Virus record (IMG/VR): IMGVR_UViG_3300035688_000233
Coordinates: 1 to 39,022 of that record
Source of the DNA: a virus
DNA length: 39,022 bases
Direction: 5' to 3' (one strand)
The position numbers were made by a program, and so were the translations under genes. The notes below the pieces were generated by a model, which made no database searches, had not been told where the DNA came from, and worked only from the letters and a program-made list of their open reading frames with translations. This document shows, piece by piece, positions 22,446 through 38,075 of the stretch (positions are counted from its first letter, which is position 1; each line of letters opens with the position of its first letter).

Positions 22446-22457
22446 ATGGAGGTTGAG

Positions 22458-22823: not shown

Positions 22824-22824
22824 G

Positions 22825-23714: not shown

Positions 23715-23755
23715 TTTTTATTGTTTGTTATCTGTTTTAACAGGGCAAAAGAGCG

Positions 23756-24061: not shown

Positions 24062-24063
24062 AG

Positions 24064-24249
24064 ATGAATTATAAAATCGTGGAGAGGCGGGCGAGGGTGG
24101 TGGGGATAGAGTCGGATGAGGAAGGTGCATCGCATTTGGGAAATGCAACGCACCTGTCGATGAGCATAAGGGAGAGGCTGGTCGTTTGGGGGTTGGCGGC
24201 GCTGATCGTGGCGGGGCTGGTGTTCGCGGCGATCGGCTGGGTGGGGTAG
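24064..24249 (+). CDS. Small membrane protein containing a palindrome
   Basis: A 61-aa protein with GGAG near 24050. Its middle (EEGASHLGNATHLSM) is encoded by the second-family palindrome at 24123-24155, and its end is a membrane helix (VVWGLAALIVAGLVFAAIGW). Without the insert it would be a very small protein with a charged head and one helix. Function unknown. Confidence 0.55.
   Translation: MNYKIVERRARVVGIESDEEGASHLGNATHLSMSIRERLVVWGLAALIVAGLVFAAIGWVG
24123..24155 (+). repeat. Second palindrome family, copy 2 (in a gene)
   Basis: Outer arms AGGTGC/GCACCT, inner arms GCATTT/AAATGC around GGG. The 33 bases are 11 codons and keep the frame. Confidence 0.8.
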
Positions 24250-24274
24250 GGATGGGGAGGGTGAAAACAGGAAT

Positions 24275-24299
24275 GGGCGCAGCTTGCTGCGCCCCTACG
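24275..24299 (+). repeat. Palindrome family member
   Basis: Arms GGGCGCAGC/GCTGCGCCC, loop TT, right end CTACG. It lies between 24249 and 24320. Confidence 0.92.
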
Positions 24300-24319
24300 T
24301 TGGAATTTGGAGAGATTGA

Positions 24320-24823
24320 ATGACCGATGAGGTGACGGTGCTGGAGGATTTGTGCAGCCCGGAGGGTGTGCGGAGGTTGCACGTGATGAGCGGGACGGAG
24401 ATCGATCTATCCCTGCTGATGTGGCGGGTGCCGGTCCCGGCGCAGGACATGGTCCAGGTGAGGGAATGGGAGGAGGCGCAGCTGGGGGTGAAACATGCAG
24501 AGCTGAGATGGAAGGCGCGGGAGGGAGTGCGCTGGCAGATCCAGGTGGATGGGAAGATGGTGGAATGGCATGGAGTGCTGTGGTACATCGAGCCGGGCGG
24601 GAGGATATCGGAGGCGGTGGGGGATGCGGCGGGCAGGTACTGGGTGGAGTTCGAATGCTGGCCGCAGTTCGGCTGGGTGAGGAGGCTGCCGGAGGGGGTG
24701 GAGGAGGGTGTGGAGGTGGAAATAGGATCAGGAGTAGAGGCGGTGCACGTGATGCTGGCGGATTGGGTGCCTGCCGGGTTCGTGGCGGTGGGGAGGGGCG
24801 CATCAATGAGGTTTTATGAATAG
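24320..24823 (+). CDS. Unknown protein
   Basis: A 167-aa acidic protein with GGAG 8 bases upstream of the ATG. Trp-rich (MWRVPVPAQDM, VRWQIQVDG, VEWHGVLWYIEPGG, YWVEFECWPQFGWV) with alternating strands and helices; no membrane segment or known motif. It overlaps the DndC-like gene by 8 bases and may work with it. Confidence 0.65.
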   Translation: MTDEVTVLEDLCSPEGVRRLHVMSGTEIDLSLLMWRVPVPAQDMVQVREWEEAQLGVKHAELRWKAREGVRWQIQVDGKMVEWHGVLWYIEPGGRISEAVGDAAGRYWVEFECWPQFGWVRRLPEGVEEGVEVEIGSGVEAVHVMLADWVPAGFVAVGRGASMRFYE

Positions 24824-25970
24824 AAGGCAATTATCTCTTTTTGAAAGCGGACGGCTTCGATTTGATGATGCCATCGATTTGAGTTTGAAAAGCCTGGATA
24901 GTTATGGATCCAGATATCGGCATTGGGCCGTGGCATACAGCGGGGGAAAAGACTCATCGGCAACGGTTACATTTGTGGCCTGGGCGATCAAATCGGGGAT
25001 GGTAAAAGTACCTGAGAGCTTGACGGTTCTATATGCGGATACCAGAATGGAAATACCGCCGCTACGACAGACAGCAGTCAGGCTACTTGAAAATCTTTCT
25101 GATGATGGTTTTAGAACAGCAGTTGTTTTGCCGGAGATCGATAATAGATTTTTTGTCTACATGCTGGGAAGAGGTGTGCCACCACCGAAAAACACATTTC
25201 GCTGGTGCACATCGATGTTGAAGATCAAACCGATGATGAAGGCTCTCCTGGAATTGAGAAAAATTTCAGGCGAGAAAATTATGATGATAACCGGAGTGCG
25301 GATCGGTGAAAGTGCTGCACGGGATCAACGTATAGCGCTGTCATGTTCACGTGATACGGGCGAGTGCGGCCAAGGGTGGTTTCAGATTTCGACTCCCGAG
25401 GCGATTGCTGATACCCTGGCACCGCTGCTGCACTGGCGCCTGTGTCATGTTTACGACTGGATTTACTTTTCGCAGGATAAACATGGTTATGATGTGAGCG
25501 ATATCGCAGTAATCTATGGCGAGGGAGATGTGCGCACAGGCTGCATCGAATGCAACCTGGCGAGCCGCGATGTATCACTCGAGCGATTAATCCGTAATCC
25601 GGAATGGCAATATCTAAAACCGCTGCTAGAACTCAAACCGCTTTATAAAGAATTGAAATTGGCATTTTGGCGAAAAAGAAAAACGAAACCTGAAATATGT
25701 AAAAGTGGGAAGATCAGTAAAAATATTCAACGGATGGGGCCGTTGACGATGGAGGGACGATCCTATGGTTTGGAGAAAGTTCTGGATATACAGAGGCGTG
25801 CAAAAATCGATTTAATCAATGACGAAGAGGAAGAGCGGATCAGGGAGATGTGGGCTTATGATGTTTGGCCGGAAAAGTGGTCCAAGGAGGATATTGATGC
25901 GATTTTTCCTTTTGATTTCATCCAGTTGGAGGATGGTAAATTTATTGTCCAGCCATTGTTGATCAGGTGA
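24816..25970 (+). CDS. DndC-like PAPS-reductase-family sulfurtransferase
   Basis: A 384-aa PP-loop ATPase. The loop is YSGGKDSS (41-48). LGRGVPPPKNTFRWCTSMLK (117-136) and the GVRIGESAARDQR block (160-172) follow the order of DndC, the enzyme that prepares sulfur insertion into the DNA backbone; C131 and the pair C243/C246 (GCIECN) fit an iron-sulfur or sulfur-relay site. No dndA, B, D or E genes are present, so a full phosphorothioation pathway is not supported. A base or tRNA modification is an alternative. Its AT-richer composition suggests transfer. Confidence 0.8.
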   Translation: MNRRQLSLFESGRLRFDDAIDLSLKSLDSYGSRYRHWAVAYSGGKDSSATVTFVAWAIKSGMVKVPESLTVLYADTRMEIPPLRQTAVRLLENLSDDGFRTAVVLPEIDNRFFVYMLGRGVPPPKNTFRWCTSMLKIKPMMKALLELRKISGEKIMMITGVRIGESAARDQRIALSCSRDTGECGQGWFQISTPEAIADTLAPLLHWRLCHVYDWIYFSQDKHGYDVSDIAVIYGEGDVRTGCIECNLASRDVSLERLIRNPEWQYLKPLLELKPLYKELKLAFWRKRKTKPEICKSGKISKNIQRMGPLTMEGRSYGLEKVLDIQRRAKIDLINDEEEERIREMWAYDVWPEKWSKEDIDAIFPFDFIQLEDGKFIVQPLLIR

Positions 25971-25981
25971 GGAGGTGTGTG

Positions 25982-26326
25982 ATGAGTGGAATTGAATGGT
26001 GTTGCAAGAACGGGCATGTGCTGGGGCTGGTGATGGAGAATGGGAGGGGGGTGAAGCATCTGCTGTTATATAGGGAGGCGCATGATCTGATGCAGCAAAG
26101 GGCGCAGCACGCTGCGCCCCTACAAATGCCGGACGTGATTGCGATCGTGAGGTATGCGACGGATATACGCTGCTCGATATGCGGATCTAAGAAAACATGG
26201 ATGATTGGGAGGGATGCGATCGAGGAGTTGGGGTTGAGGCTGGAGAAGCTGGTGTGGAGGAAGAGCCAGGGCGTGGTGGTAGCCAAAGACGCCACCATCC
26301 AAAACACGCTCCTACGGAGGGAATGA
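25982..26326 (+). CDS. Small Cys protein carrying two palindromes
   Basis: A 114-aa protein with GGAGGT before ATG 25982. It begins SGIEWCCKNGHVLGLVMEN and has a C-x2-C knuckle (RCSICGSKKTW); the N-terminal Cys/His and this pair may form one zinc site. Residues QQRAQHAAPLQ in the middle come from the palindrome at 26100 and the end (QGVVVAKDATIQNTLLRRE) from the one at 26269. Function unknown. Confidence 0.68.
   Translation: MSGIEWCCKNGHVLGLVMENGRGVKHLLLYREAHDLMQQRAQHAAPLQMPDVIAIVRYATDIRCSICGSKKTWMIGRDAIEELGLRLEKLVWRKSQGVVVAKDATIQNTLLRRE
26100..26124 (+). repeat. Palindrome family member inside a gene
   Basis: Arms GGGCGCAGC/GCTGCGCCC, loop AC, right end CTACA. Read through in frame by the gene at 25982-26326. 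Confidence 0.9.
26269..26317 (+). repeat. Degenerate palindrome at a gene end
   Basis: Left GGGCGTGGTGG, right end CACGCTCCTACGG, imperfect arms and a long middle that again contains GCCACCA. It leads into the GGAGG of the next gene. Confidence 0.6.
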
Positions 26327-27111
26327 TGGGTGAGAAAACAGGAATAGAATGGTGCGATGCGACGTGGAATCCGTGGATTGGGTGCCAAAAAATATCACTG
26401 GGTTGTCTTCACTGCTATGCTGAACGATACAACAAACAGTATGGGTGGACTATTGGTTGGGGTATTACTGGAGACCGTCGAAAGACCAGTGAGGTTAACT
26501 GGAAAAAACCAGTAGCATGGGACAGAGTCGCAAAGCGGGAAGGGATACGCAAAAGAGTTTTTTGCGGTAGCCTCTGTGATGTATTTGAGGACAGGCCAGA
26601 GTTGAAGGCATGGCGGGGTGAAATTTGGAGTTTGATTGTAAATACTCCAAATCTGGATTGGTTGATTTTGACGAAAAGACCCGAAAATATTTTGAGGATG
26701 TGCCCCACTCAGATTATGGGGGAACTTGATGAATGGATCCCGCCTAATGTTTGGATTGGTGTGAGTGTAGAAAATCAGGAAATGGCAGATAAACGAATCC
26801 CCATCTTGGCGGAAATGCCTTCCAATGTGAGATTTTTGTCTATCGAGCCGATGCTGGAAGATATTGATCTGACAAAAAATTTTTCGTATTACGATGGATG
26901 GAACGCACCTTTTGAATGGGTGATTGTTGGAGGCGAGAGCGGGACGGGTTGCAGACCGTTCAATGTTGAATGGGCAAGGCATATAGTGACACAATTAAGG
27001 TTATGTGGCGTACCGTTTTTTATGAAACAGTTGGGGGGATGGCCGGACAAGAGGGACAAGATGGAGGAATTTCCGGAGGATTTGAGGGTGAGGGAGTGGC
27101 CGGAAAGGTAA
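26326..27111 (+). CDS. Phage Gp37/Gp68 family (DUF5131) protein
   Basis: A 261-aa protein starting with GEKTGIEWCDATWNPWIGC, then QKISLGCLHCYAE: the three-Cys pattern of the Gp37/Gp68 family, which resembles radical SAM enzymes. WIGVSVENQEMADKRIP and VIVGGESGTGCRPF are family hallmarks further on. The reaction is not established. ATG 26326 overlaps the previous stop with GGAGG 5 bases upstream. It is a neighbour of the DndC-like and methylase genes, suggesting nucleic acid modification. Confidence 0.9.
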   Translation: MGEKTGIEWCDATWNPWIGCQKISLGCLHCYAERYNKQYGWTIGWGITGDRRKTSEVNWKKPVAWDRVAKREGIRKRVFCGSLCDVFEDRPELKAWRGEIWSLIVNTPNLDWLILTKRPENILRMCPTQIMGELDEWIPPNVWIGVSVENQEMADKRIPILAEMPSNVRFLSIEPMLEDIDLTKNFSYYDGWNAPFEWVIVGGESGTGCRPFNVEWARHIVTQLRLCGVPFFMKQLGGWPDKRDKMEEFPEDLRVREWPER

Positions 27112-27120
27112 GGTTTGATA

Positions 27121-27468
27121 ATGGCAAAAAAATTATTTCGTTGGGAGTGTAAACATTGTGAAGTCGAGTTTTATGGTACAGGAGTGTTGAATGAGAAATG
27201 TGAAATATGCGGGGGCGGACTTAATAGACTTGAGCTTATGGGTTATGTAGGAGGCATGATAAAGATAATGGATAAGAGATATTATAAATGGTTGCCAAAG
27301 ATTGCGCGGGCCACAGTTGAATTAAATAGAGTTTTACATGAGTCTCTTTCAGATGGGGTTATCCCTAAAATAATAGTTCATGATGATGAAAAGACTCAAG
27401 CTCTTTTCGGAAAAAATGCCCAAGTGGTTGAGGTTAGTATTGCCCTTGGGGAATTGAGGGCGGGATGA
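27121..27468 (+). CDS. Zinc-ribbon protein
   Basis: A 115-aa protein with an N-terminal four-Cys ribbon (WECKHCEVEF and EKCEICGGGLN). The rest is a mixed domain (YYKWLPKIARATVELNRVL, VIPKIIVHDDEKTQ) without known motif. The last four codons lie in the palindrome at 27458. The ribosome site is a weak AAGG. Confidence 0.7.
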   Translation: MAKKLFRWECKHCEVEFYGTGVLNEKCEICGGGLNRLELMGYVGGMIKIMDKRYYKWLPKIARATVELNRVLHESLSDGVIPKIIVHDDEKTQALFGKNAQVVEVSIALGELRAG

Positions 27469-27483
27469 TCCCGCCCGTACGGG
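27458..27483 (+). repeat. Palindrome family member at a gene end
   Basis: Arms GGGCGGGA/TCCCGCCC, loop TGA (part of the gene's stop region), right end GTACGG. It ends just before the promoter at 27487. Confidence 0.92.
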
Positions 27484-27486
27484 AGG

Positions 27487-27514
27487 TTGACAAAAGAGGA
27501 ATACGGCATATAAT
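27487..27514 (+). promoter_or_regulatory. Consensus promoter of leader RNA 1
   Basis: -35 TTGACA (27487-27492), 16-base spacer, -10 TATAAT (27509-27514); both hexamers are perfect. Start of transcription near 27521. Confidence 0.85.
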
Positions 27515-27523
27515 GTGAGGGAA

Positions 27524-27552
27524 GGGGGCGCAAACTAACAGTTTGCGTTACG
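27524..27552 (+). repeat. Palindrome family member within leader RNA 1
   Basis: Arms CGCAAACT/AGTTTGCG, loop AAC, left flank GGGGG and right end TTACGC. Confidence 0.75.
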
Positions 27553-27592
27553 CAGGTCCCCGGAGGGTGAGGGGACCAGTGGACGAGTTGAG

Positions 27593-27630
27593 CGCCGTCG
27601 TGTCAATCGACACGGCGGCGATTTTGTTTT
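27593..27630 (+). terminator. Terminator of leader RNA 1
   Basis: 12-bp stem (CGCCGTCGTGTC with GACACGGCGGCG, one G-U pair), tetraloop AATC, then ATTTTGTTTT. A strong intrinsic terminator placed before plus-strand genes. Confidence 0.85.
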
Positions 27631-27646
27631 GGGCGGGTGCGATAAA

Positions 27647-27671
27647 GGGCGCAGCATGCTGCGCCCCTACG
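27647..27671 (+). repeat. Palindrome family member
   Basis: Arms GGGCGCAGCA/TGCTGCGCCC with no loop, right end CTACG. It lies between the leader terminator and the next gene's ribosome site. Confidence 0.92.
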
Positions 27672-27689
27672 AGAGGAATGGAGGTTTGA

Positions 27690-28070
27690 ATGGAACTGAC
27701 GTTTGTGCAACTGGCGATCCTGGGTTTGGTCGCGACGGTGGTGACGGGGATCCTGAACTGGCTGGCGGAGAAGCGGGGCTATCACCTGGCTCGAGGCTGG
27801 GTGACGCTGATCCTGTTCGTGATTGCGATGATCCTGTCGTTTTTCTGGCAGCCGGTGGCGCTGCCTGTGTTCCCGGCCTATGCGGGGGATCCGGCTATAT
27901 TCACGATTGCGCTATTGACATGGGTTGGTACGCTTTCGAGCGCAGCGGGGGTGGTGGTCGGGTTTGCGACGGTGATCTACAACTGGCTGGTGAGGAAGAT
28001 ATATGACAAGGCGGCACGGGCCGTCGTGCAGGAAGATTTTTATAAAAAGGCAAGACTGCCAAAGAGATAA
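27690..28070 (+). CDS. Multi-pass membrane protein (holin candidate)
   Basis: A 126-aa protein with GGAGG before the ATG and three predicted membrane helices: about 5-25 (FVQLAILGLVATVVTGILNW), 38-56 (WVTLILFVIAMILSFFW) and 72-100 (FTIALLTWVGTLSSAAGVVV). The tail is charged and basic. Size and topology fit a class I holin, but it lies before the terminase genes, far from the endolysin. Its last 15 codons plus stop are repeated exactly downstream. Confidence 0.65.
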   Translation: MELTFVQLAILGLVATVVTGILNWLAEKRGYHLARGWVTLILFVIAMILSFFWQPVALPVFPAYAGDPAIFTIALLTWVGTLSSAAGVVVGFATVIYNWLVRKIYDKAARAVVQEDFYKKARLPKR

Positions 28071-28118
28071 GTCGTGCAGGAAGATTTTTATAAAAAGGCA
28101 AGACTGCCAAAGAGATAA
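28023..28118 (+). repeat. Perfect 48-bp tandem duplication
   Basis: Bases 28023-28070 are repeated without change at 28071-28118. The unit is the last 15 codons of the membrane protein plus its stop, so the second copy follows the stop in the same frame. Absence of any difference points to a recent event. Confidence 0.95.
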
Positions 28119-28126
28119 GCGTTATG

Positions 28127-28160
28127 GGGCGTGGACTTAGATCGCAGCACGCCCCTACGG
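28127..28160 (+). repeat. Palindrome family member, long loop
   Basis: Arms GGGCGTG/CACGCCC with a 14-base loop, right end CTACGG. It precedes the small terminase gene. Confidence 0.8.
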
Positions 28161-28175
28161 ATTGATGGAGGGTAG

Positions 28176-28913
28176 ATGAAATTCGACGAGCGGCAGATGG
28201 TCTTCGACGGGTTCGAGCTGGAGGATGACGTGCGGCTCGAGGCGGAGACGCGGCGGATCAGCATGGAGGAGGCGCGGCAGATCAGCGAGGCGGCGCGGCA
28301 GGTTTTCGAGCAGGGAGCGCAGGAGATAAAGAAAAATGAAGAGGGGGAGGTGGAGTTCGAGAATGCCTGGTACGAGGATTACCTGATGCTGCGCACATTG
28401 GGATGGCCGTGGAGGGTGGCGACGTATATCGCATGGGCGGCATCGCCAAAACTCAGGAGAGAACCAAGAACGCTTAATGAGTTGGCGGATAAAGTACTTG
28501 GACTGAACAGCCCGCGTGCGGTGCATACTTGGCGGGATAAATATGTGACCATCGATGCGGTGGTGAATATGATGCAAGCGAAGCCAACGTTGGAGTATAG
28601 ACGGGATGTGTACGATGCACTCGTCAAAGTGGCGGCAACCCAGGATCATAAATGTGCTCCAGATCGGAAATTATATATGGAGATGACGGGGGACTACGTG
28701 CCGCATATGAAGATCGATGAGAGAATTGGGAAGGCAACGGATTTGACTGGCTTGAGCGATGAGGAGCTGGATGCGCTGGGGGCGAAGAGGGTGATCGAGG
28801 AGAGGCTGAGGAAGGGCGGGGAGAATGGACAGGATGCTTCGCGACCAGGGCGGGATGCTTCGCGATCAGGGCGGGGAGACCCCGCCCCTACGGGCGATGA
28901 TGGTAACGGATAG
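28176..28913 (+). CDS. Terminase small subunit (TerS-like)
   Basis: A 245-aa protein expected to recognise the packaging site and load the large subunit. It has a charged N-terminal helix, a helix-turn-helix (about 107-130, LNELADKVLGLNSPRAVHTW) and a C-terminal block DRKLYMEMTGDYVP resembling the end of TerS proteins. The last 25 residues (ASRPGRDASRSGRGDPAPTG...) are encoded by a 21-bp tandem repeat and the palindrome at 28869. It overlaps the large subunit frame by 89 bases. Confidence 0.75.
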   Translation: MKFDERQMVFDGFELEDDVRLEAETRRISMEEARQISEAARQVFEQGAQEIKKNEEGEVEFENAWYEDYLMLRTLGWPWRVATYIAWAASPKLRREPRTLNELADKVLGLNSPRAVHTWRDKYVTIDAVVNMMQAKPTLEYRRDVYDALVKVAATQDHKCAPDRKLYMEMTGDYVPHMKIDERIGKATDLTGLSDEELDALGAKRVIEERLRKGGENGQDASRPGRDASRSGRGDPAPTGDDGNG

Positions 28914-30522
28914 GGCGGTTCAAGGGGCAATTCTTGAATTGCCCCAACAGGAATTGCCCCAACAGGAATTACCCCTGCTGGCGGCGGAGGAGAGGACGAG
29001 GCGGGAGGCGGCGAACCGGCACCTGATCGATTTTTCCATATACATGTCGCCATGGTACCGGCCGGGCAGGCACCACATGCTGGTGGCGGAGAAGCTGGAA
29101 CAGGTTGCGCGGTATATCATGACCAAGGGTGCGCAGGGGATCGGCAGGCTGATGATCTTCGAGCCGCCGAGACACGGAAAATCACTGCAAGTATCGAGGC
29201 TATTTCCAGCATGGCTGCTGGGGAAGATGCCTGATGCGAGGATCATCCTGGCATCATATGGGCTCGAACTGGCTGAGGATGACAGCCGGGCGGTGCGGAA
29301 CTACGTGCAGGAGCCGCGCTATGCCAACGTGTTCGGACGGAACCGATCGGTGGTGGATATACCGGTAGAGCTGAGCAAGGATTCCACGTCCAAGGCAGAC
29401 TGGGACCTGGCGGCGCCGCACCGGGGAGGGGTGATCGCGGCGGGGGTGGAGGGGCGGATCGTGGGGTTCGGGGCGCACCTATTGAACATCAACGACCCGA
29501 TCAAGGGCCGGAAGGAGGCGGAGAGCGAGACGCACCGGCGAAACGTAATGACCTGGTATCACGGCAACGCGTATACACGGCTGGAGGACGGCGGGGCGAT
29601 CGTGCTGACACATACACGATGGGATCCCGAGGATCTGGCGGGGCAACTGCTGATGGAGATGGTCTCGGACGATCCGTTGAAGGACCAGTGGGAAATCGTG
29701 TTTCTACCGGCGATCGCACTGGATGAGGATCAATATCCGAAGAACGAAGCGGAGTACAACGAGAATTTATTGAGAGGAATTTATATACCGATGGCGGCTA
29801 GCGCCGCACTTTCAGGGGGCGACCAACTGGGCAGGGAGGCAGGGGAGGTGATCTGGCCGGAGAAGTACCCGCTGGAGGTGATCCAGAAGATCATGGGGAA
29901 CATCCTGGATTACGAGGGGTCGAGCCAGTACCAGCAACTGCCGAGAATGATGTCAGGGGAGCTGTTCGATGAAAGTGATTTCCAATATGTAGAGAAGGCG
30001 CCGGAGGGCATACAATGGTACAGGTACATCGACCTGGCGCTGGGCAAGAGCGAGACTTCGGACCACAACGTGACGATAGCGGTGGCAGAGAACGAGGAGG
30101 GGAAGCTGTTCCTGAGGGACAGGTTGAAGGTGCGGAATCTGGAGGCGTTCCTGCCGGAGTGCAGGGAGCTGATGCTGGATAAAAAGGAGAGGGGGACGGT
30201 ATGGGGAGGGGAGGACGTGGCGTTCCAGTCGCTGGCGATGAAGGAATTTTTCAAGGATAAACAACTGGCGAACACGGCCATCACGCTGGTGAAGCCGGAG
30301 GGCGACAAGGTGCAGCGGGCACGCCCCTGGCAATTGAAGGCGAAGAGGGGGGAGGTCATATTAGTGAGGGGGAGCTGGAATTTGAGCTTCGTGCGGATCG
30401 CGACGGCGTTCAGGGCGGGGGCGCGGGAGGATGACGACATCGACAGCGTGAGCGGAGGGGTGCAGATGGTGGCGGAGCAGAGCAACGTGACGGAGGCGGT
30501 GCCGAATCCGTTTTATGGATAG
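28825..30522 (+). CDS. terL: Terminase large subunit
   Basis: The packaging motor: ATPase and nuclease that fill the capsid. At 565 aa it has Walker A PPRHGKS (114-120), the coupling motif THTRWDPEDLAG, and a C-terminal RNase H-like nuclease with YIDLALGKSETSDHN and DDDIDSVSG acidic residues. The first 50 residues are odd: repeated MLRDQGG and ELPQQ units encoded by repeats, followed by the real start-like part near AAEERTRREA. ATG 28825 has GGGG-AG upstream; ATG 28897 or 28900 are alternatives with poor ribosome sites. Domain function is not in doubt. Confidence 0.95.
   Translation: MDRMLRDQGGMLRDQGGETPPLRAMMVTDRAVQGAILELPQQELPQQELPLLAAEERTRREAANRHLIDFSIYMSPWYRPGRHHMLVAEKLEQVARYIMTKGAQGIGRLMIFEPPRHGKSLQVSRLFPAWLLGKMPDARIILASYGLELAEDDSRAVRNYVQEPRYANVFGRNRSVVDIPVELSKDSTSKADWDLAAPHRGGVIAAGVEGRIVGFGAHLLNINDPIKGRKEAESETHRRNVMTWYHGNAYTRLEDGGAIVLTHTRWDPEDLAGQLLMEMVSDDPLKDQWEIVFLPAIALDEDQYPKNEAEYNENLLRGIYIPMAASAALSGGDQLGREAGEVIWPEKYPLEVIQKIMGNILDYEGSSQYQQLPRMMSGELFDESDFQYVEKAPEGIQWYRYIDLALGKSETSDHNVTIAVAENEEGKLFLRDRLKVRNLEAFLPECRELMLDKKERGTVWGGEDVAFQSLAMKEFFKDKQLANTAITLVKPEGDKVQRARPWQLKAKRGEVILVRGSWNLSFVRIATAFRAGAREDDDIDSVSGGVQMVAEQSNVTEAVPNPFYG
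28832..28873 (+). repeat. 21-bp tandem repeat in the TerS/TerL overlap
   Basis: Two units starting GGATGCTTCGCGA (28832 and 28853), differing at one base. In the TerL frame each gives MLRDQGG. A related piece recurs at 38908. Confidence 0.85.
28869..28893 (+). repeat. Palindrome family member in the TerS/TerL overlap
   Basis: Arms GGGCGGGG/CCCCGCCC, loop AGA, right end CTACG. Read in both frames. Confidence 0.92.
28924..28980 (+). repeat. Palindrome with tripled right arm in TerL
   Basis: Arms GGGGCAATTC/GAATTGCCCC, loop TT, right end AACAG. GAATTGCCCCAACAG then occurs twice in tandem (28936-28950, 28951-28965), with a third, diverged copy to 28980. 15-base units keep the frame and give the ELPQQ repeats. 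Confidence 0.92.
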
Positions 30523-30530
30523 AAAAGAAA

Positions 30531-30589
30531 GGGCGCAGCGTGTTGGATTTTTGCAGGATAGGTTTGGAGGGATCGCTGCGCCACAACAG
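30531..30589 (+). repeat. Palindrome family member with long loop
   Basis: Arms GGCGCAGCG/CGCTGCGCC, 33-base loop, right end ACAACAGGAG, which supplies the portal gene's ribosome site. Confidence 0.88.
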
Positions 30590-30598
30590 GAGAGATAA

Positions 30599-32041
30599 AT
30601 GGGAAATATATTTGAAAATCTGAGGGAGTGGCTGCTAGAACCGTTGATGGGGCAGCCCTACGCGGAAAAGAAGAAGGATATTGAGAAGAGGCGCAAATAC
30701 CGACGGGGGGACCAGAAAGCACCGTTGAAGGGCGGGGATGACTGCATTATCGTCAATTTTACGGGGCTGATCGTGGACAGGTGCGTGTCGCAGCTCTTCG
30801 GGAAGGAGATCAAGTTCGATTTACCGGGGGAGGATGATGCTCCAGAATCGCTGTACATCAACCAGGTCTGGAGGGCAAACCACAAACAGCGGCTGCTGAA
30901 GGCGGTGGCGACATACGGCGCGGAGGCGGGGACGTGCTACATCAAGATCCTGCCGGACAGGGCGATGGATGAGGAGGGGAAACCGGTGCCGAGGCTGATC
31001 AGCATCGACCCGGCGTCGGTGCAGATGGAGACGGAGGAGGAGGACTGCGAGACGGTGATCCGGTATACCATCGGGTATACGATCCATGACGAGGCGACGG
31101 ATAAGGACATTGCGAGGAAGCAGGTGATCGAGAGGGGGGCGAGGCTGGTGGACGAATATGGTTTTGTCATTCCGCCAGTCGTTGATACGAGCGGGCACGG
31201 CGATGCCTCCGGTGCCGTGCCCCAACCGGAGGGGAGGGCAGCGGTCGGATGGGTTATCCAGAATTATCACTCGGAGGGAGACAGCCGCTGGATACTGGAT
31301 TCCGAGGTGATGTGGGAATGGGATTTCGCGCCGCTGATCCACTGGAAGAACATGCCGGAGAACGGATCGGCATACGGCAGGCCGGACGTGACGGACGACA
31401 TCATGGACCTGCAGGACAAGTTCAACTTCGTGATCTCGAATACGGGGAAGATTATCAAATTCCACGCGCACCCGAAGACGTGGGGCAAACTGTTTGGGAA
31501 GGCGGAAAATGCGACCTGGGGGGTGGATGACATGCTGCTGTCGAATAATCCAGAGGCGCACCTGGAGAACCTGGAGATGGAGAGCGACCTGGGGTCGAGC
31601 CTGAATTTCATCCGGTTCTTGAGGCAGGCGCTGTTCGACATCGCGCGGTCGGTGGACATAGACAGCCTGGCGGACAAGCTGGGGGCGTTGACGAATTTCG
31701 CGCTGCGGGTGTTGTACCAGGATGCGATGGACAAGCTGGAGGACAAGCGCGGCTCGTATGGGGAGGCGCTGGTGGCGATCAATCATGCGCTGCTGGAGCT
31801 GGCGGGGATGGGTGACACGGACGGCGGAGAGGTGATCTGGCCGGAGGTGCTGCCGCTGGACGAGATAGGGCAGGCGAACGCACTGAGCACGGACATGAAC
31901 CTGGGGCTGGTGAGCAAGCAGACGGCGTCGGACAGGCGAGGGTACGTGTGGGTGGATGAGGAGGATAGGATCGCTAAAGAGAAGCAGGAGGGGGATAACG
32001 TGGGGGCGGCGCTGCTGCGGGCGTTTGGGCAGGGGAAATGA
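30599..32041 (+). CDS. Portal protein (SPP1 gp6-like)
   Basis: A 480-aa portal, the dodecameric ring for DNA entry. Order and motifs fit SPP1-type portals: N-terminal VNFTGLIVDRCVSQLFGKEI, a central SAYGRPDVTDDIMDLQDKFN segment and a C-terminal helical crown with ALTNFALRVLYQDAMDKL. Residues 199-211 (GHGDASGAVPQPE) are encoded by a palindrome inserted in frame at 31193, in a loop before VGWVIQNYHSEG. GGAG lies 7 bases before the ATG. Confidence 0.92.
   Translation: MGNIFENLREWLLEPLMGQPYAEKKKDIEKRRKYRRGDQKAPLKGGDDCIIVNFTGLIVDRCVSQLFGKEIKFDLPGEDDAPESLYINQVWRANHKQRLLKAVATYGAEAGTCYIKILPDRAMDEEGKPVPRLISIDPASVQMETEEEDCETVIRYTIGYTIHDEATDKDIARKQVIERGARLVDEYGFVIPPVVDTSGHGDASGAVPQPEGRAAVGWVIQNYHSEGDSRWILDSEVMWEWDFAPLIHWKNMPENGSAYGRPDVTDDIMDLQDKFNFVISNTGKIIKFHAHPKTWGKLFGKAENATWGVDDMLLSNNPEAHLENLEMESDLGSSLNFIRFLRQALFDIARSVDIDSLADKLGALTNFALRVLYQDAMDKLEDKRGSYGEALVAINHALLELAGMGDTDGGEVIWPEVLPLDEIGQANALSTDMNLGLVSKQTASDRRGYVWVDEEDRIAKEKQEGDNVGAALLRAFGQGK
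31193..31232 (+). repeat. Palindrome family member inside the portal gene
   Basis: Arms GGGCACGGC/GCCGTGCCC, 12-base loop, right end CAACCGGAGG. The same arms occur at 35992. Confidence 0.9.
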
Positions 32042-32580
32042 TGATAAATCGAGGGCGGGAAGAACTTGCTCTTAAGTTATTAAAGATTGATGAGAAACAG
32101 CTAATATTTGATTGCATTGGAATGGGGTATAAAAAATGCTCAAAATGCGGAAAGACAAAAAAAATATCGGAATATTATCAAAAGAAAAATCTTAAATGTG
32201 TTTATCCTAATCAATGCAAGCAATGTATGAAAAAAGAATTCAGAAAATATCGGGTAAAAAATGCCGAAAAAATCCATGAATTGAGTAAAGGGGTTCATTT
32301 GAAGCATAAATATAATATGAGTTTATTAGATTTAGAAAAGATAAAAGAATCTCAATCGTCAAAATGTCCAACTTGCCATGAAATAAAAAAATTAGAAGTT
32401 GACCATGATCATTACACAAATAAAGTGAGGGGTCTTTTATGCCATCAATGTAATGTTGCTGTTGGATGTATAAGAGACAGCCCATTAATCGCGAAAGAAA
32501 TAATGAATTATTTAATCGCAAGTGAGGCAAGGGGTATTAATTATAAACATTTTATGTGGGGTAATATTTTTGATGACTAA
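32038..32580 (+). CDS. HNH endonuclease, endonuclease VII-like
   Basis: A 180-aa nuclease. Two C-x2-C zinc pairs at the N-terminus (KCSKCGKTKK, QCKQCMKK), then the endonuclease VII-type core CPTCHEIKKLEVDHDHYTNK and LLCHQCNVAVG. Composition is far more AT-rich than portal and head genes on either side, and it sits in a tight overlap between them, so it is likely a homing or mobile insertion; a role in resolving DNA branches is an alternative. It overlaps both neighbours (4 and 8 bases). Confidence 0.92.
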   Translation: MMINRGREELALKLLKIDEKQLIFDCIGMGYKKCSKCGKTKKISEYYQKKNLKCVYPNQCKQCMKKEFRKYRVKNAEKIHELSKGVHLKHKYNMSLLDLEKIKESQSSKCPTCHEIKKLEVDHDHYTNKVRGLLCHQCNVAVGCIRDSPLIAKEIMNYLIASEARGINYKHFMWGNIFDD

Positions 32581-33541
32581 TACGGTTTTAGATCTAGCGG
32601 CGGAGTTTCGGGCGGGATTACTGGCTCAGGATGCGGAGGTGCTGGAAAGGCTGGTGGGGGCGTATCTGCAGTTGTATGGAAGGTTGAAGGATAAGATCGA
32701 TATTTTTTTGCTGAAGTACGAGCTGCTGGAGGAGCCGACGAAGGCGGCGGTGGCGCGGTTGGCGCAGTACGGGGATTTGCTGCAGGCGATAGAGGAGGAG
32801 CTGGCGAAGTACAGTGCGTATGCGGAGGTGGAGATCTCGGGGGCGGCGCGGGCGGCGATAGAGCTGGCGATCAGGGATACGACGGCTTACCTGAATTTCT
32901 ACGGGCTGGAGCGACCGGCGATGCTGCCGACGAAGGCGATCGAGGCGATGTTGGGATTTTTGAAGCCGGATGGTCCGCTGTACGCGAGGCTGGGGGAGCT
33001 GGCGGGTGCCCATGCGGCGAAGGTGGGGGATGCGATCCTGGAGGGGGTGGGATTGGGATACAACCCGATAAAAGTTGCAAAATCAATCGAGAACTACATG
33101 GGGGGCGGTTTGACGGATGCGCTGCGCAACGCGAGGACGGTGCAGCTTTATTCATACCGGGAGGCGACGCGGGCGAACTACATGATGAACTCGGACGTGG
33201 TGCAGGGCTGGATCTGGTGGGCGGAGCTGGATGACGAGGTGTGCATGGCGTGCGCGGCGGAGCACGGGGAGGTGCACGGTTTGGAGGAGAATTTGGACGG
33301 ACATTACAACTGCCGGTGTGCGATGCTGCCGTACCTTGGCGATAACCCGGTGGAGCAGGGCGGGGAGGAGTGGTTCGAGGGGTTGAGCGAGGACATGCAG
33401 AGGCAGATGATGGGGGAGGAGAAGTTCGAGGCATGGAGCGAGGGGAAGTTCGATTTTGGAGATCTGGCGACGACGACGCATTCGGATGTGTTCGGGGACA
33501 TGCGGGTGGAGAGGTCGCTGCAGGAGTTGGTGGGAGGATGA
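32573..33541 (+). CDS. Minor head protein (SPP1 gp7/Mu gpF-like)
   Basis: A 322-aa head morphogenesis protein that accompanies the portal. It begins MTNTVLDLAAEF at 32573; the C-terminal half has LRNARTVQLYSYREATRANY, then ELDDEVCMACAAEHG ... HYNCRCAML, the Cys-bearing signature of the gp7/gpF family. It would normally follow the portal directly, but the HNH gene separates them. The last 60 residues are acidic and probably flexible. Confidence 0.9.
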   Translation: MTNTVLDLAAEFRAGLLAQDAEVLERLVGAYLQLYGRLKDKIDIFLLKYELLEEPTKAAVARLAQYGDLLQAIEEELAKYSAYAEVEISGAARAAIELAIRDTTAYLNFYGLERPAMLPTKAIEAMLGFLKPDGPLYARLGELAGAHAAKVGDAILEGVGLGYNPIKVAKSIENYMGGGLTDALRNARTVQLYSYREATRANYMMNSDVVQGWIWWAELDDEVCMACAAEHGEVHGLEENLDGHYNCRCAMLPYLGDNPVEQGGEEWFEGLSEDMQRQMMGEEKFEAWSEGKFDFGDLATTTHSDVFGDMRVERSLQELVGG

Positions 33542-33553
33542 CCCCACCCCTGA

Positions 33554-33586
33554 CCCCTCCCCAAATTCTGCGAATTTGGAGAGGGG
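33554..33586 (+). repeat. 15-bp inverted repeat
   Basis: Arms CCCCTCCCCAAATTC (33554-33568) and GAATTTGGAGAGGGG (33572-33586), one mismatch, loop TGC. It differs from the GGGC family. It lies just before the small basic gene. Confidence 0.85.
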
Positions 33587-33601
33587 AAATGGAGGAATGG
33601 A

Positions 33602-33763
33602 ATGCCATATAAGACGGTGAGATTGAAAGGGGGGAGGGTGAGGGCGACGAACAAGAGCACGGGGAAGAAGCGGACGTTCCGGAGCAAGGGGGCGTTCAAG
33701 CGCTGGAGCCGGGTGGCGCGGGCGTATGATCACGGCTGGAGGCCGAGGGGGAGGAGGCATTGA
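33602..33763 (+). CDS. Small, very basic protein (53 aa)
   Basis: The frame gives MPYKTVRLKGGRVRATNKST and continues with GKKRTFRSKGAFKRWSRVAR to end in RPRGRRH: about one third Lys/Arg and almost no acidic residues. GGAGG precedes the ATG. It sits between minor head protein and scaffold. Such a protein could bind DNA or the packaging machinery, or be enclosed in the capsid. No family recognised. Confidence 0.72.
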   Translation: MPYKTVRLKGGRVRATNKSTGKKRTFRSKGAFKRWSRVARAYDHGWRPRGRRH

Positions 33764-33765
33764 GG

Positions 33766-33792
33766 TTGACAGGAGTAAAAATCTGATATAAT
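33766..33792 (+). promoter_or_regulatory. Consensus promoter of leader RNA 2
   Basis: -35 TTGACA (33766-33771), 15-base spacer, -10 TATAAT (33787-33792). Spacer is short, hexamers are perfect. It begins 3 bases after the basic protein's stop. Confidence 0.78.
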
Positions 33793-33801
33793 GGAGTGAA
33801 A

Positions 33802-33827
33802 GGGCGGTTCGTGAACCGCCCCAACAG
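33802..33827 (+). repeat. Palindrome family member within leader RNA 2
   Basis: Arms GGGCGGTTC/GAACCGCCC, loop GT, right end CAACAG. Confidence 0.92.
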
Positions 33828-33871
33828 AATAGCAGGTCCCCGGAGGGTGAGGGGACCAGGGACGAGTTGAG

Positions 33872-33905
33872 CGCCGTCGTGTCAAGAGACACGGCGGCGT
33901 TTTTT
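33872..33905 (+). terminator. Terminator of leader RNA 2
   Basis: 12-bp stem with the same arms as RNA 1, loop AAGA, followed by six T (33900-33905). Confidence 0.88.
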
Positions 33906-33974
33906 GTTGGAGAAGGGCGGCTGGAGGAGATCCTTCGGCTACGCCTCAGGATGACAATAAAAGGGAGAGTCGAG

Positions 33975-34529
33975 ATGACTAAAGAGCAGGAAGCTGCCGA
34001 GAAGGCAGCGAAGGAAACCACCAAGACGGTGGAGGCAGAGGTTGAGGCCGAGACGGCGGAAACGGAAGGGACCGAGAAGGTAGCTTCCAAAACCGAAACC
34101 AAAGAGGATGAGGCTTTCGACCAAGTGCGGGCGATGGAGACAATCCGGAACCTGCGCGAGATCGAGAAACAGGCCAAGAGAGACAAGGCCGAACTCGAAC
34201 GTCTTAAGAAGCTGGAAGAGGAGCGCAAACTGGCGGATCTGTCAGAGACAGACCGCTTAAAGGCACAAATCGTAAAACTAGAAAAGACGATCGAGGAACT
34301 GACAACCAGACAGATGCAGATCGAGGCTGCGGAGAAGGTCAAGCTGCCGATGATTTTCGCCGACCGGATCAGGGGCGAGACGCCCGAGGAGATGGAGGCG
34401 GATGCCAAGGCACTGCTAGAGGCAATGCCGAAGGGGAAGGGTACCCCGGACACGGGGGAGACCAACCCAGGCGAGAACAAGATCACCGGGGAGACGGATG
34501 CGCAGCGGAGGAAGCGTCTGATTGGATAA
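33975..34529 (+). CDS. Capsid scaffold protein
   Basis: A 184-aa, highly charged, helical protein that directs capsid assembly and is absent from the mature head. The N-terminus is Glu/Lys/Thr-rich and disordered; about 50-130 is coiled coil (RNLREIEKQAKRDKAELERL, AQIVKLEKTIEELTTRQMQI); the end is a short basic patch (AQRRKRLIG), typical for coat binding. Its position immediately before the major capsid gene supports the role. ATG 33975 has GGGAGAG upstream. Confidence 0.88.
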   Translation: MTKEQEAAEKAAKETTKTVEAEVEAETAETEGTEKVASKTETKEDEAFDQVRAMETIRNLREIEKQAKRDKAELERLKKLEEERKLADLSETDRLKAQIVKLEKTIEELTTRQMQIEAAEKVKLPMIFADRIRGETPEEMEADAKALLEAMPKGKGTPDTGETNPGENKITGETDAQRRKRLIG

Positions 34530-34533
34530 TGAA

Positions 34534-34561
34534 GGGCTGGGAAACCCAGCCCCTACGGAGG
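34534..34561 (+). repeat. Palindrome family member
   Basis: Arms GGGCTGGG/CCCAGCCC, loop AAA, right end CTACGGAGG, which itself is the ribosome site of the capsid gene. Confidence 0.93.
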
Positions 34562-34569
34562 AATAAATT

Positions 34570-35439
34570 ATGACAACAGGACGAAATCTTTGGGCGGATA
34601 TTTCCGACATCGCTAACGCGGTGCAGGAAGATGCCTATTTTATAGTGCGAGAAGCGGCGATCATGCAGAACTTCGTGCTGGTTTTCAACGACATGAAGGG
34701 AATGAATCTGCGGAAGGGTTACAAATATTCGAGTGGGACGGCCAAGACGATCGGCGAGGACGATGACCTGGTCTCGGACACGTTCACGCCTTCGGTAGAT
34801 CAAACGCTGACACCGGCGGAAATCGGCGAGCAGTTTTTCATCACCGATTCGCGCAGGGACAGCGAGGCGCCGGAGAATATCATGACGGATGCGGCGCAGG
34901 AGCTGGGCTTCGCAGCGGCTGACAAGATCAACAACGACCTGGCGGGCGACATGGCGTCGCTGACGGGCGGTACGATTGGCACGGCAGGATCGGCGATCAC
35001 GTGGGGCTATGTGGCTGCAGCAATCGCAAGGGCGCGCAACGCCAGCAAAAACCTGGCGGTACCACTGAACTGCGTGATTCACGGCTACCAGGCGGCTGTG
35101 CTGGGAAAGACGGCCAGCATAGCGGGGGCTTCGGTGGTGAATGCGCCCGGGGTGCAGGACGTGGTCACGCGGCGGGGCATGGAGCAGGCGTTTACATTCC
35201 TGGGAGTGCCGATCTGGCAGGTGTTCGTGACACCTGACAGCTCGGATGATTTCACCGGAGGAGTGTTCCCGAGGAAGGCGCTGGCGATCGACTGGCGGCG
35301 TGCGATCCGGGTGGCTCCAGAAAGGGACGAATCACGGCGCGGGCTGGAGTTGAACATGAGCGCTGTCTATGCTCACGGTATCTGGCGTCCTCTATTGGGC
35401 GTCAAGATGATCTTCGACGCTACGGCGCCGACGAGCTAG
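34570..35439 (+). CDS. Major capsid protein (HK97 fold)
   Basis: A 289-aa coat protein. It follows scaffold and precedes a small decoration gene. N-terminal helix IVREAAIMQNFVLVFNDM, a GYKYSSGTAKTIGEDDDLVS E-loop-like region, a long helix (APENIMTDAAQELGFAAADK) and a C-terminal block RRAIRVAPERDESRRGLEL fit HK97-fold capsids. It lacks an N-terminal delta domain, consistent with a separate scaffold gene. GGAGG is provided by the palindrome. Confidence 0.9.
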   Translation: MTTGRNLWADISDIANAVQEDAYFIVREAAIMQNFVLVFNDMKGMNLRKGYKYSSGTAKTIGEDDDLVSDTFTPSVDQTLTPAEIGEQFFITDSRRDSEAPENIMTDAAQELGFAAADKINNDLAGDMASLTGGTIGTAGSAITWGYVAAAIARARNASKNLAVPLNCVIHGYQAAVLGKTASIAGASVVNAPGVQDVVTRRGMEQAFTFLGVPIWQVFVTPDSSDDFTGGVFPRKALAIDWRRAIRVAPERDESRRGLELNMSAVYAHGIWRPLLGVKMIFDATAPTS

Positions 35440-35449
35440 GAGGTGTGAA

Positions 35450-35845
35450 GTGGATCTAATAACAGTCAATACATGTATCACGGACCCGGGGGCAGATAAC
35501 AAGCACATCTTCCTGTTCAAGGCACCGAGTGCTTCGCTAGGCGGAGGTGCGCGGGTTCTTTCGGCTCATGCACATTCACAATCACAGGGTGCTGGGACGT
35601 CGTTCTCGCTGGCGCTGCACAAGTACAGCTCGGCGGGGACACCGGCGGTGAACGGGACGATCGCAGCGGCGATCGGCGGGACGGCCGGAACGGTCTGGAC
35701 GGAGGGCGTGCCGCAGGCGTTCACAATCGATGCGGATTATGCCTTCCTGGATGCGGGCGAGTGGCTGGTGATCGACTACCAGGAGGATGCTGCACTGGCG
35801 GTGGTGGGGGCGAACATCACGGTCGTGATGCAGATGGGCAAATAA
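35450..35845 (+). CDS. Capsid decoration or auxiliary head protein
   Basis: A 131-aa protein with a GTG start and AGGAGGTG 6 bases upstream. It is beta-rich and Ala/Gly/Thr-rich (GTIAAAIGGTAGTVWTEG, GEWLVIDYQEDAALAV), the usual make-up of head decoration proteins. Position after the capsid gene supports this. It is followed by a palindrome and a folded noncoding element. Confidence 0.65.
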   Translation: MDLITVNTCITDPGADNKHIFLFKAPSASLGGGARVLSAHAHSQSQGAGTSFSLALHKYSSAGTPAVNGTIAAAIGGTAGTVWTEGVPQAFTIDADYAFLDAGEWLVIDYQEDAALAVVGANITVVMQMGK

Positions 35846-35848
35846 TTT

Positions 35849-35872
35849 GGGCAGGGCGACCCTGCCCCTACA
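35849..35872 (+). repeat. Palindrome family member
   Basis: Arms GGGCAGGG/CCCTGCCC, loop CGA, right end CTACA. Confidence 0.92.
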
Positions 35873-35873
35873 A

Positions 35874-35930
35874 AGCGCCAGGATAGCCGTATACGGCGAA
35901 AAGCGGACCCTCCCGCCGCTTCCTGGCGCT
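35874..35930 (+). other. Predicted three-way junction element
   Basis: Outer arms AGCGCCAGGA (35874-35883) and TCCTGGCGCT (35921-35930) pair perfectly over 10 bp. Inside are GCCGTATACGGC (35886-35897, self-complementary) and AGCGG/CCGCT (35902-35906, 35916-35920). No T run follows. It lies 25 bases before the FkbM gene. Confidence 0.7.
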
Positions 35931-35955
35931 ATTTGGGAGATGTGAGGAGGCACAG

Positions 35956-38007
35956 ATGAATGATATGCCGAGGGAATCGGGCACGGCGAATGGGCACGGC
36001 ACAAAACCCGCCGTGCCCCTACGGGGGAGGTGGTGCGGGATCGGGTTGTACAACCCGGACGGGAGCATGAGCATTCCGGACGCAGAGGGGAATGAGAAAC
36101 AAATCAGTATAGATGGCAAGGGCGTGATCATTCCAGGCGGGTTCAAAAATCCGTTGAATTTTGTATTTAACGAGCCGGACGGGATCGAGTACATCGTGCT
36201 GCGGGAGATCGAGCGGGATTACCGGCTGGACGAATGCGGGTTGACGAAGGACAGCCTAGTGATCGATATTGGGGCGCACGTGGGGGTGGTGAGCATGTAC
36301 TTGTCGAAGAAGTACGGGTGCCGGGTGCTGGCATATGAGCCGGAGGGGGGGAATTGCGAGAGGCTGATCAGAAACATCGAGACGAATGGACTGGGTGGAT
36401 TGATCCGGGCGTGGCAACTGGCGGTGACGGGGGATGGGCGGGAGGTGACGATCAGCAAGGATGATGTAAATTCAGGCGGGGGGAACATCTATGCGGAGGG
36501 GGGGGAAACAGTCAATTCAGTTACTTTGAAAGATATTATGGAATTAATAGCGGATAAAGAAATTGATCTACTAAAAGTTGATTGCGAGGGGGCGGAGTAT
36601 GAGATTTTCGAGGATCTGGAGCCGTTGAAGCGGGTGCGGGCGATACGGGGGGAGTTTCATCGGGGGTTTGGGGATGCGGAGAAATTATTGGAGAGGGTGC
36701 GGGCTGCCGTGCCGGATACGGTGGTGACGATGCAGGGGACCCCCCCGGCCAATAAAAGGGCGCAACGTGTCGCGCTCAAAGAAGTGGAGATTAGCAATAT
36801 ACCGCTGCGCCCCAACGGGCCCGCCGGGAAATTGCGGATCCATTGGCTGGCGTGTGCGCCATGGACGGCGGTGGGTTATGGGAACCAGACGAAGATTTTC
36901 GTGCCGAGGCTGAAAACGGCGGGGCACGAGATCAGCATCACGGCGCTGTACGGGCTGGAGGGTGCGCCGTTACACTGGGGGGATGTCAAGGTATATCCGA
37001 AGGGATTCCATCTGTATGGACAGGATATCGCGGCGGCGAATGCAGGTATCGAGAAGGCGGATATCCTGATCAGCCTGCTGGATGCTTGGGTATGCGAGCC
37101 GGATATGCTGGCGATGAACAAGCAGCGCTGGGTGCCGTGGTTCCCGGTGGACAGCGAGCCGCTGGCGGCCAGCATCCGGGAGAATGTGGCGAGGGCGTAC
37201 AAGCGGATCGTCTTCAGCCAATTTGCGGAGAGGATGATGGAGCAGGCGGGGCTGGATTATTACTACGTGCCGCATGGTATAGATACCAAAAAATTTACGC
37301 CAAAAGATCGAGCGGAGAGCCGGAAGATGCTGGGGCTGCCGGAGGACGCGTATATCGTTGGGATGGTGGCGGCGAACAAGGGCAATCCAAGCAGGAAATG
37401 TTTTTGCGAGCAGATTGCGGCGTTCCAAACGCTGAGGATGGCGCACAAGGATGCGGTGATGTACCTGCACACATACGACGGGTCGAGCGGGGCGCATGGG
37501 GCGGTGAACCTGGTGGAGTATATCAAGGGGCTGGATTTGAAACTGGGGAAGGAAATTTACATCTGCAACCAGCACATGTATCACCTGAGCTATGGGGATA
37601 CATACATGGCGGCAGCGTACTCAGCGATGGACGTGTTGACGAACGTGTCGGCGGGGGAGGGGTTCGGGATCCCGATCGTGGAGGCGCAGGCGTGCGGGAC
37701 GCCGGTGATCGTTGGTGACTGGACGAGCATGAGCGAGCTATGTTTCAGCGGGCGCAAAGTTCGGAAGGAGGAGGCGGCGCCGTTCTACACGGGGATCGGT
37801 GTGTTCCAGTTCGTGCCGCGGATCGAGTCGATTGCGAGCCTGATGCTGGCGGAGTACGAGCATCCGCACAGCCGGGAGAAGGCGCGCGAGGGGGTGCTGG
37901 CGTATGAGGCGGACCTGGTGGTAGAGAAGTACTGGGAGCCGGTACTCATGGATATCGGCAGGTGCATCGAGGAGGGGGCGAGCAAGCTGGAGCTGGTGAG
38001 GTTTTGA
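35956..38007 (+). CDS. FkbM methyltransferase fused to GT4-like glycosyltransferase
   Basis: A 683-aa two-enzyme protein. Domain 1 (about 75-265): SAM-dependent FkbM methyltransferase with VIDIGAHVG (102-110) and LLKVDCEGAEYEIF. Domain 2 (about 292-675): glycosyltransferase that opens KLRIHWLACAPW, like a free-standing start, and has VSAGEGFGIPIVEAQACGTP (donor site). The joining segment (about 268-291) is encoded by a palindrome (36757-36818), and residues 7-24 by another (35992). GAGG precedes the ATG. Likely role: decorating virion proteins or altering host glycans. Confidence 0.9.
   Translation: MNDMPRESGTANGHGTKPAVPLRGRWCGIGLYNPDGSMSIPDAEGNEKQISIDGKGVIIPGGFKNPLNFVFNEPDGIEYIVLREIERDYRLDECGLTKDSLVIDIGAHVGVVSMYLSKKYGCRVLAYEPEGGNCERLIRNIETNGLGGLIRAWQLAVTGDGREVTISKDDVNSGGGNIYAEGGETVNSVTLKDIMELIADKEIDLLKVDCEGAEYEIFEDLEPLKRVRAIRGEFHRGFGDAEKLLERVRAAVPDTVVTMQGTPPANKRAQRVALKEVEISNIPLRPNGPAGKLRIHWLACAPWTAVGYGNQTKIFVPRLKTAGHEISITALYGLEGAPLHWGDVKVYPKGFHLYGQDIAAANAGIEKADILISLLDAWVCEPDMLAMNKQRWVPWFPVDSEPLAASIRENVARAYKRIVFSQFAERMMEQAGLDYYYVPHGIDTKKFTPKDRAESRKMLGLPEDAYIVGMVAANKGNPSRKCFCEQIAAFQTLRMAHKDAVMYLHTYDGSSGAHGAVNLVEYIKGLDLKLGKEIYICNQHMYHLSYGDTYMAAAYSAMDVLTNVSAGEGFGIPIVEAQACGTPVIVGDWTSMSELCFSGRKVRKEEAAPFYTGIGVFQFVPRIESIASLMLAEYEHPHSREKAREGVLAYEADLVVEKYWEPVLMDIGRCIEEGASKLELVRF
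35992..36027 (+). repeat. Palindrome family member inside the FkbM N-terminus
   Basis: Arms GGGCACGGC/GCCGTGCCC, 9-base loop, right end CTACGGGGG. A GGGCACGGC is also present just before (35980-35988). Confidence 0.9.
36757..36818 (+). repeat. Palindrome family member at the enzyme fusion point
   Basis: Arms GGGCGCA/TGCGCCC, about 41-base loop, right end CAACGGG. In frame between the two domains. Confidence 0.75.
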
Positions 38008-38036
38008 TTAGATATGAAGTTTGATGAGACGGACCA

Positions 38037-38061
38037 GGGCGATGCATGCATCGCCCCTACA
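38037..38061 (+). repeat. Palindrome family member
   Basis: Arms GGGCGATGCA/TGCATCGCCC, no loop, right end CTACA. Between the fusion gene and the HNH gene. Confidence 0.92.
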
Positions 38062-38075
38062 AATACGAGGTTTTG

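Follow-up and report, generated by a model that had tools for sequence, protein, structure and literature searches.

A conserved promoter-hairpin-terminator leader upstream of the late operons of uncultivated phages

Why should a phage place a strong intrinsic terminator between a consensus promoter and its essential late genes? The question is raised by the 39,022-base IMG/VR virus record IMGVR_UViG_3300035688_000233, whose positions 1-39,022 make up the window studied here by sequence analysis only. Two promoter-hairpin-terminator leaders lie at 27487-27630 (copy 1) and 33766-33905 (copy 2). Copy 1 directly precedes a lysis/terminase operon (a small membrane-protein gene, then the terminase subunits TerS and TerL), and copy 2 directly precedes a scaffold/capsid operon. 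For temperate phages the switch to late genes is the central decision, and what is known of it comes mostly from lambda-like Q systems. We find that an unlisted RNA family with a built-in terminator alternative precedes the terminase genes across a diverse clade of uncultivated phages. On the sequence evidence set out below, each element probably forms the 5' leader of its late operon, where it would attenuate transcription by switching between two states: OFF by default, and relieved by a factor that stabilises the second of its hairpins.

The initial annotation of the locus had described perfect -35 and -10 hexamers and the same order of elements in both copies, and this description was confirmed. 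The promoter of copy 1 (27487..27514, + strand) consists of TTGACA (27487-27492), a 16-nt spacer and TATAAT (27509-27514). It agrees with 12/12 consensus positions and is the sole such match in 20000-39022, where a score of 9 is background. The promoter of copy 2 (33766..33792, +) has TTGACA at 33766-33771, a 15-nt spacer and TATAAT at 33787-33792. The first conserved hairpin, P1, follows at 27555..27577 (+) in copy 1, with a conserved GCA before it (27552-27554), and at 33835..33857 (+) in copy 2, with GAATA (33827-33831) and GCA before it. The GGTCCCC/GGGGACC hairpin reported for both copies was recovered as GGTCCCCGGAGGGTGAGGGGACCAG, which occurs exactly twice and in none of 100 shuffles allowing up to 3 mismatches. 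The second hairpin, P2, reads GACG (AGTTGAGCGC) CGTC at both 27582..27599 (+) and 33861..33878 (+). An intrinsic terminator ends each copy: at 27593..27630 (+) a 12-bp stem (27593-27620), whose 5' arm includes the P2 3' strand, is followed by a T run, and its counterpart with T run lies at 33869..33905 (+). Compared with shuffled sequences, the two copies fold with z scores of -5.9 (copy 1) and -7.0 (copy 2).

Some details of that annotation had to be revised. The copies had been said to match except for one indel and the terminator loop; from GCAGG onward this is so, save that they also differ in a single base where the T run begins. The common segment GACGAGTTGAGCGCC is present in both copies, but it is not a separate element, being one P2 strand, the P2 loop and the start of the terminator. 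Likewise, the variable palindrome is real (27529..27547, +, in copy 1) but lies outside the conserved core, since relatives have none or a different one. Its counterpart in copy 2 (33802..33821, +) was probably inserted; it is of the type of the intergenic families D2/D4 and resembles GC-rich intergenic palindromes spread over this genome.

A covariance search for more copies in related phages, which had been suggested as a check, was carried out, and 58 non-redundant leader copies (modules) were gathered in all. About 55 related uncultivated phages carry homologous leaders ahead of their terminase genes. Scanning viral contigs for exact patterns of the hairpin of the analysed record found nothing, nor did a search for relatives with its TerL alone; the relatives came via Virus Rctr41k and relaxed patterns. 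Rctr41k (KX853513.1, from a DAMO/AAA enrichment culture) was reached by a TerL search at 53% identity. Before its terminase genes, at 15577-15704, promoter, hairpin and terminator follow one another in the same order, and a second copy lies at 13905-14025; the stem sequences differ from those of the analysed record. Relaxed patterns gave eight more leaders in viral contigs, most of them visibly before TerS/TerL. Further loci were drawn from TerL alignments, and a covariance model built on 11 leaders finds the leader in most loci that reach far enough upstream. Leaders were also found by manual inspection of loci that encode protein A, described below, and have no model match.

TerS/TerL lie 0.1-3 kb downstream of the leader in 32-33 loci, and the RNA-bearing phages form one clade in the TerL tree. 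A single copy before the terminase genes is the rule: 10 of the 11 records searched whole have one sense-strand copy, and Rctr41k has two. Two copies are also present in L058 and in the analysed record, where the pair initially reported thus stands as an exception within the clade. A pattern scan of 84,980 bacterial/archaeal genome species gave 16 matches, none of them in a promoter-hairpin context; these, and likewise the other pattern-only viral matches, resemble ordinary terminators or coding sequence and were rejected. No Rfam 15 family matched the module at gathering score in the analysed record, Rctr41k or ten relatives, and no published description of the element was found in the literature searched, the coverage of which was incomplete.

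From the U tract to the first gene with a Shine-Dalgarno start, the median distance is 40 nt. The best upstream promoter score of the relatives averages 9.57/12, compared to 7.72 after shuffling. Judged from sequence and position, the element is a cis leader of the late operon. Immediately behind the -10 hexamer, close to where the transcript probably starts, 20/53 modules (4.5 expected) have a YTGAATA/TCGAATA-like element, with L035, L057, L078, L140, L142 and L152 among the carriers; copy 1 of the analysed record is without it.

Evidence for P1 comes from a hand alignment of 13 leaders which, being placed by structure and padded with N, leans towards the structure: it has changes on both sides at 7/8 P1 pairs, and P1 and the terminator jointly give a covariation of 0.476 vs 0.154 when shuffled. 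An independent check of the folding of the P1 segment yielded a mean z of -1.9 vs mononucleotide shuffles. The GCA before P1 is found in 40/58 modules; the loops of P1 vary. The reading as a leader peptide was rejected, as the GTG frames in P1 differ between copies 1 and 2 and the P1 loop holding them is not conserved.

The stem of P2 is formed by the 4-6 nt that directly flank a conserved 10-nt loop, AGAUGAGCGC, on either side. The strands are GACG/CGUC in the analysed record and, among relatives, CUGG/CCAG, GUAG/CUAC, GACAGG/CCUGUC, GGAAG/CUUCC, UCAG/CUGA, CGAC/GUCG and GGCGG/CCGCC. With a fixed register, 46 modules form on average 3.13 of 4 pairs vs 2.01 +- 0.15 with shuffled partners, and other registers yield 0.9-2.0. 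With a flexible register and one module per type (27 types), the value is 11.2 vs 7.04 +- 0.50, and none of 2000 shuffles exceeded 9.04. For pair counting, 38 fixed-length 22-mers were picked by their loop letters, not by pairing. They have compensatory changes at 5/5 pairs and a covariation of 0.739 vs 0.223 +- 0.036 when shuffled, which drops to 0.07-0.30 when the register is slid. Loop positions 6-10 (AGCGC) are 84-98% conserved. Relatives without the hairpin pair or the terminator would have spoken against the annotated element; instead, both are conserved by covariation in about 55 phages.

The terminator builds its 5' arm in part from the 3' strand of P2, so that the two structures cannot form together. 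A simple rule detects a terminator overlapping this strand in 50/58 modules. The predicted energies are about -24 to -27 kcal/mol for the terminators and -0.6 to -7.1 kcal/mol for P2; the value of -4.3 for L076 comes from a truncated segment. Because P2 is weak (about -0.6 to -7 kcal/mol) against a terminator of about -25, we infer that termination is the default, with the late genes silent, and that relief depends on a factor. P2 would also account for a G-U pair kept in the terminators of copies 1 and 2, because the U must pair with A in P2.

According to the mechanism that we propose, host RNA polymerase would start at the sigma-70-type promoter and make P1, followed by a segment with two exclusive folds. 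In one of them, P2 would form with 4-6 bp closing the conserved loop; in the other, its 3' strand would be taken up as the 5' arm of the very stable terminator. Late genes silent by default would fit a temperate lifestyle. At a late stage of infection, P2 would be held by a factor reading its loop, probably along with P1 and the preceding GCA, for long enough to block the terminator, and the polymerase would pass into the terminase or capsid genes. Sequence comparison establishes the promoter, P1, P2, the terminator, the mutual exclusion of the last two and the position as a leader; that a factor exists, what it is and when it acts are, like the OFF default, inferred.

It is plausible, though somewhat less likely than not, that a temperate phage lineage gates its virion genes by such a terminator/antiterminator RNA switch, the 10-nt loop being read by a new class of antitermination factor (the zinc-ribbon protein A) or by a small-molecule signal. 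To our knowledge, late-gene control of this kind has been described in no phage. Should the leader work as proposed, it would offer a new way of coupling lysis and virion assembly to a signal, a marker for spotting the late operons of the clade, and a compact RNA switch that is off unless an RNA-binding factor acts on it.

The factor is most likely encoded by the phage. Our first candidate, as a putative late regulator, is protein A (25967..26326, +), a zinc-ribbon-like protein of 119 aa with the motif C-x-N-G-H ... C-x-x-C. Protein B (24320..24823, +; 167 aa) is encoded upstream in most RNA-bearing phages, and both families are found upstream, on the same strand, in nearly all leader-bearing phages. 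A is present in 36/36 members of the TerL tree that have the RNA and enough upstream sequence, and a 37th member, L156, has A plus a weak, hand-read leader. All 13 TerL relatives outside the clade (13/13) are without A and without the RNA, and among 50,697 phage records a recognisable A was found in Rctr41k only. As the RNA and A follow the same clade, their association is one by descent as far as can be told. AlphaFold2 models of A and B reached predicted local distance difference test (pLDDT) values of 85 and 91, respectively; weak LicT rows in the fold search were not counted as evidence.

Several observations weigh against attenuation relieved by such a factor. P2 is short, and L047, L044 and L071 pair over at most 3 bp. 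In 8/58 modules, including L066, L071, L140, L147 and L167, the simple rule finds no good overlapping terminator. The YTGAATA-like element is not explained by the attenuator model. A and B have no Pfam, PHROG or significant fold match, and shared ancestry alone could explain the association of A with the RNA.

The record as a whole appears to be that of a temperate tailed phage: it encodes two tyrosine integrases, TerL, an SPP1-like portal, a Mu F-like head protein, a scaffold and a capsid protein. The two integrases (13244-14182, -, and 17073-18071, +) are different from each other; Rctr41k likewise has two. The first gene after copy 1 (27690..28070, +) encodes a small membrane protein, holin-like by position, which has no PHROG or Pfam match and whose homologues head the operon in relatives. 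A 48-bp exact tandem duplication (28023-28118) lies at the end of this open reading frame (ORF), with the stop codon in the first copy. The presumed small terminase subunit (28176-28913, +) and TerL (28825-30522, +; PHROG 38, E 2e-77) follow. Behind copy 2 are the scaffold gene (33972-34529, +; phrog_233, E 2e-10) and the gene of the probable major capsid protein (34570-35439, +; phrog_544, E 1.6e-4). Between genes B and A, a PAPS-reductase-like protein is encoded (24816-25970, +; phrog_12882, E 4e-121), which is also conserved in L036.

Short GC-rich palindromes of the types GGGCGGGGAGACCCCGCCCCTAC and GGGCGCAGCATGCTGCGCCCCTAC were located at 19777-19811, 22418-22452, 22785-22819, 24268-24298, 26093-26123, 27456-27490, 27640-27670, 28867-28901, 34532-34566 and 38030-38060. 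These families are scattered over short gaps of the genome, some adjoining the leaders; Rctr41k has similar elements, and a related palindrome sits inside the P1 loop of L056. A direct repeat at 15326-15634 (148 nt, 80% identity) spans a small ORF. At 35876-35940 (+) there is an int-alpA RNA (Rfam RF02996; 44.6 bits vs a gathering score of 35.8), adjoining on its 5' side an FkbM methyltransferase/glycosyltransferase gene and away from any integrase or alpA; the Rfam search did not find it in Rctr41k or ten relatives.

Other explanations of the leader have to be weighed against attenuation. In processive antitermination of the lambda Q type, a phage protein would be loaded onto the polymerase, either at the late promoter or where it pauses close to the promoter, and would let it run through this and later terminators, so that the hairpins would be incidental or serve pausing. 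In its favour, the genetic order (regulator, constitutive late promoter, terminator, late genes) is shared with lambda, genes of small conserved proteins lie upstream, and the conserved element right behind the -10 hexamer might serve for pausing or loading. However, the GAATA element is missing from copy 1, and P2 and its loop are conserved by covariation, although Q needs no RNA hairpin overlapping the terminator (PMC6606751). We consider this explanation unlikely, and the likeness to lambda 6S RNA and Q drawn in the initial annotation is less supported: a hairpin that overlaps the terminator points to attenuation there, not to a Q-type modification of the polymerase at the promoter. Far less probable still is an RNA like put of phage HK022, both hairpins of which would themselves contact RNA polymerase and prevent termination with no protein involved. 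Two adjacent stem-loops right behind a phage promoter, about 70 nt in all, would resemble putL (PMC9378689), but put RNAs act on terminators further downstream, while P2 has a strand in common with the leader terminator. Moreover, the P1 loops vary, and an RNA active by itself would leave the leader terminator pointless.

The compact conserved core (GCA, P1 and the 10-nt loop), joined to an alternative-terminator expression platform, could also be that of a riboswitch in which a small molecule bound in a pocket of GCA and P1 stabilises P2 and ties late expression to the state of the host. With few invariant positions outside the loop, a variable P1 loop and no Rfam riboswitch match, this is improbable, and control of virion genes by a metabolite would be out of the ordinary. 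Lastly, the initial annotation had left the choice between an attenuated leader and a free small RNA. A trans-acting RNA of about 108 nt, lying before late genes by chance, would agree with the strong promoter, the strong terminator and the two nearly identical copies in the analysed record. Yet the Shine-Dalgarno start of the first late gene lies only a short way past the U tract, and the terminator shares the part that is most conserved; we regard a free RNA as very unlikely. An attenuated leader in need of antitermination, the other half of that proposal, is the best reading, with the leader conserved in the clade.

How does an attenuator of this kind compare with known systems? The lambda late leader (pR', tR', 6S RNA; Q) has a late promoter, a short leader RNA and a terminator, followed by lysis and virion genes, with the regulator upstream; here, too, a constitutive-type promoter and then a terminator stand before late genes. 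Q recognises promoter DNA and acts with the sigma pause, and that model has no antiterminator hairpin over the terminator (PMC6606751), whereas such a hairpin is conserved here. The DNA marks of a Q leader are a Q-binding element between -35 and -10 and a -10-like pause element. A and B, the two proteins compared in the search for a Q-family antiterminator, are unmatched in Pfam and PHROGs. HK022 put RNA is likewise a phage leader with two stem-loops behind the promoter (PMC9378689), but put acts directly on the polymerase for early genes and not as an alternative to a single leader terminator.

The leaders read by ANTAR proteins (EutV, NasR, AmiR) have tandem hairpins, the second of which overlaps the 5' part of the terminator, and hexanucleotide loops with A1/G4 (PMC3369931). 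The leaders described here have this arrangement too, with P1 and P2 in tandem and P2 reaching into the 5' part of the intrinsic terminator, and loop bases are conserved. In contrast, the P2 loop has 10 nt (position 4 is T in 44/58 modules and G in 3/58) and the P1 loops vary, whereas ANTAR loops carry A1/G4 in both hairpins; for lack of such hexanucleotide loops, the element is not filed under ANTAR. No ANTAR domain was matched in A or B, nor in 15 phage records, a search in which control genomes gave none either. The characterised ANTAR leaders govern bacterial metabolic operons, those described here phage late operons. With the ribonucleic antiterminator (RAT) of BglG/SacY/LicT, a protein-stabilised hairpin that overlaps a terminator and is OFF by default (PMC3369931), the leader shares the principle of the overlapping antiterminator hairpin. 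RAT, however, is a single hairpin of 29-30 nt without P1 and of other sequence, and P2 has 18-24 nt and its own loop; A and B, the two proteins examined for it, have no Pfam match to the CAT RNA-binding domain. We conclude that the leader represents a new RNA family, whose proposed mechanism is of a known kind but put to a new use.

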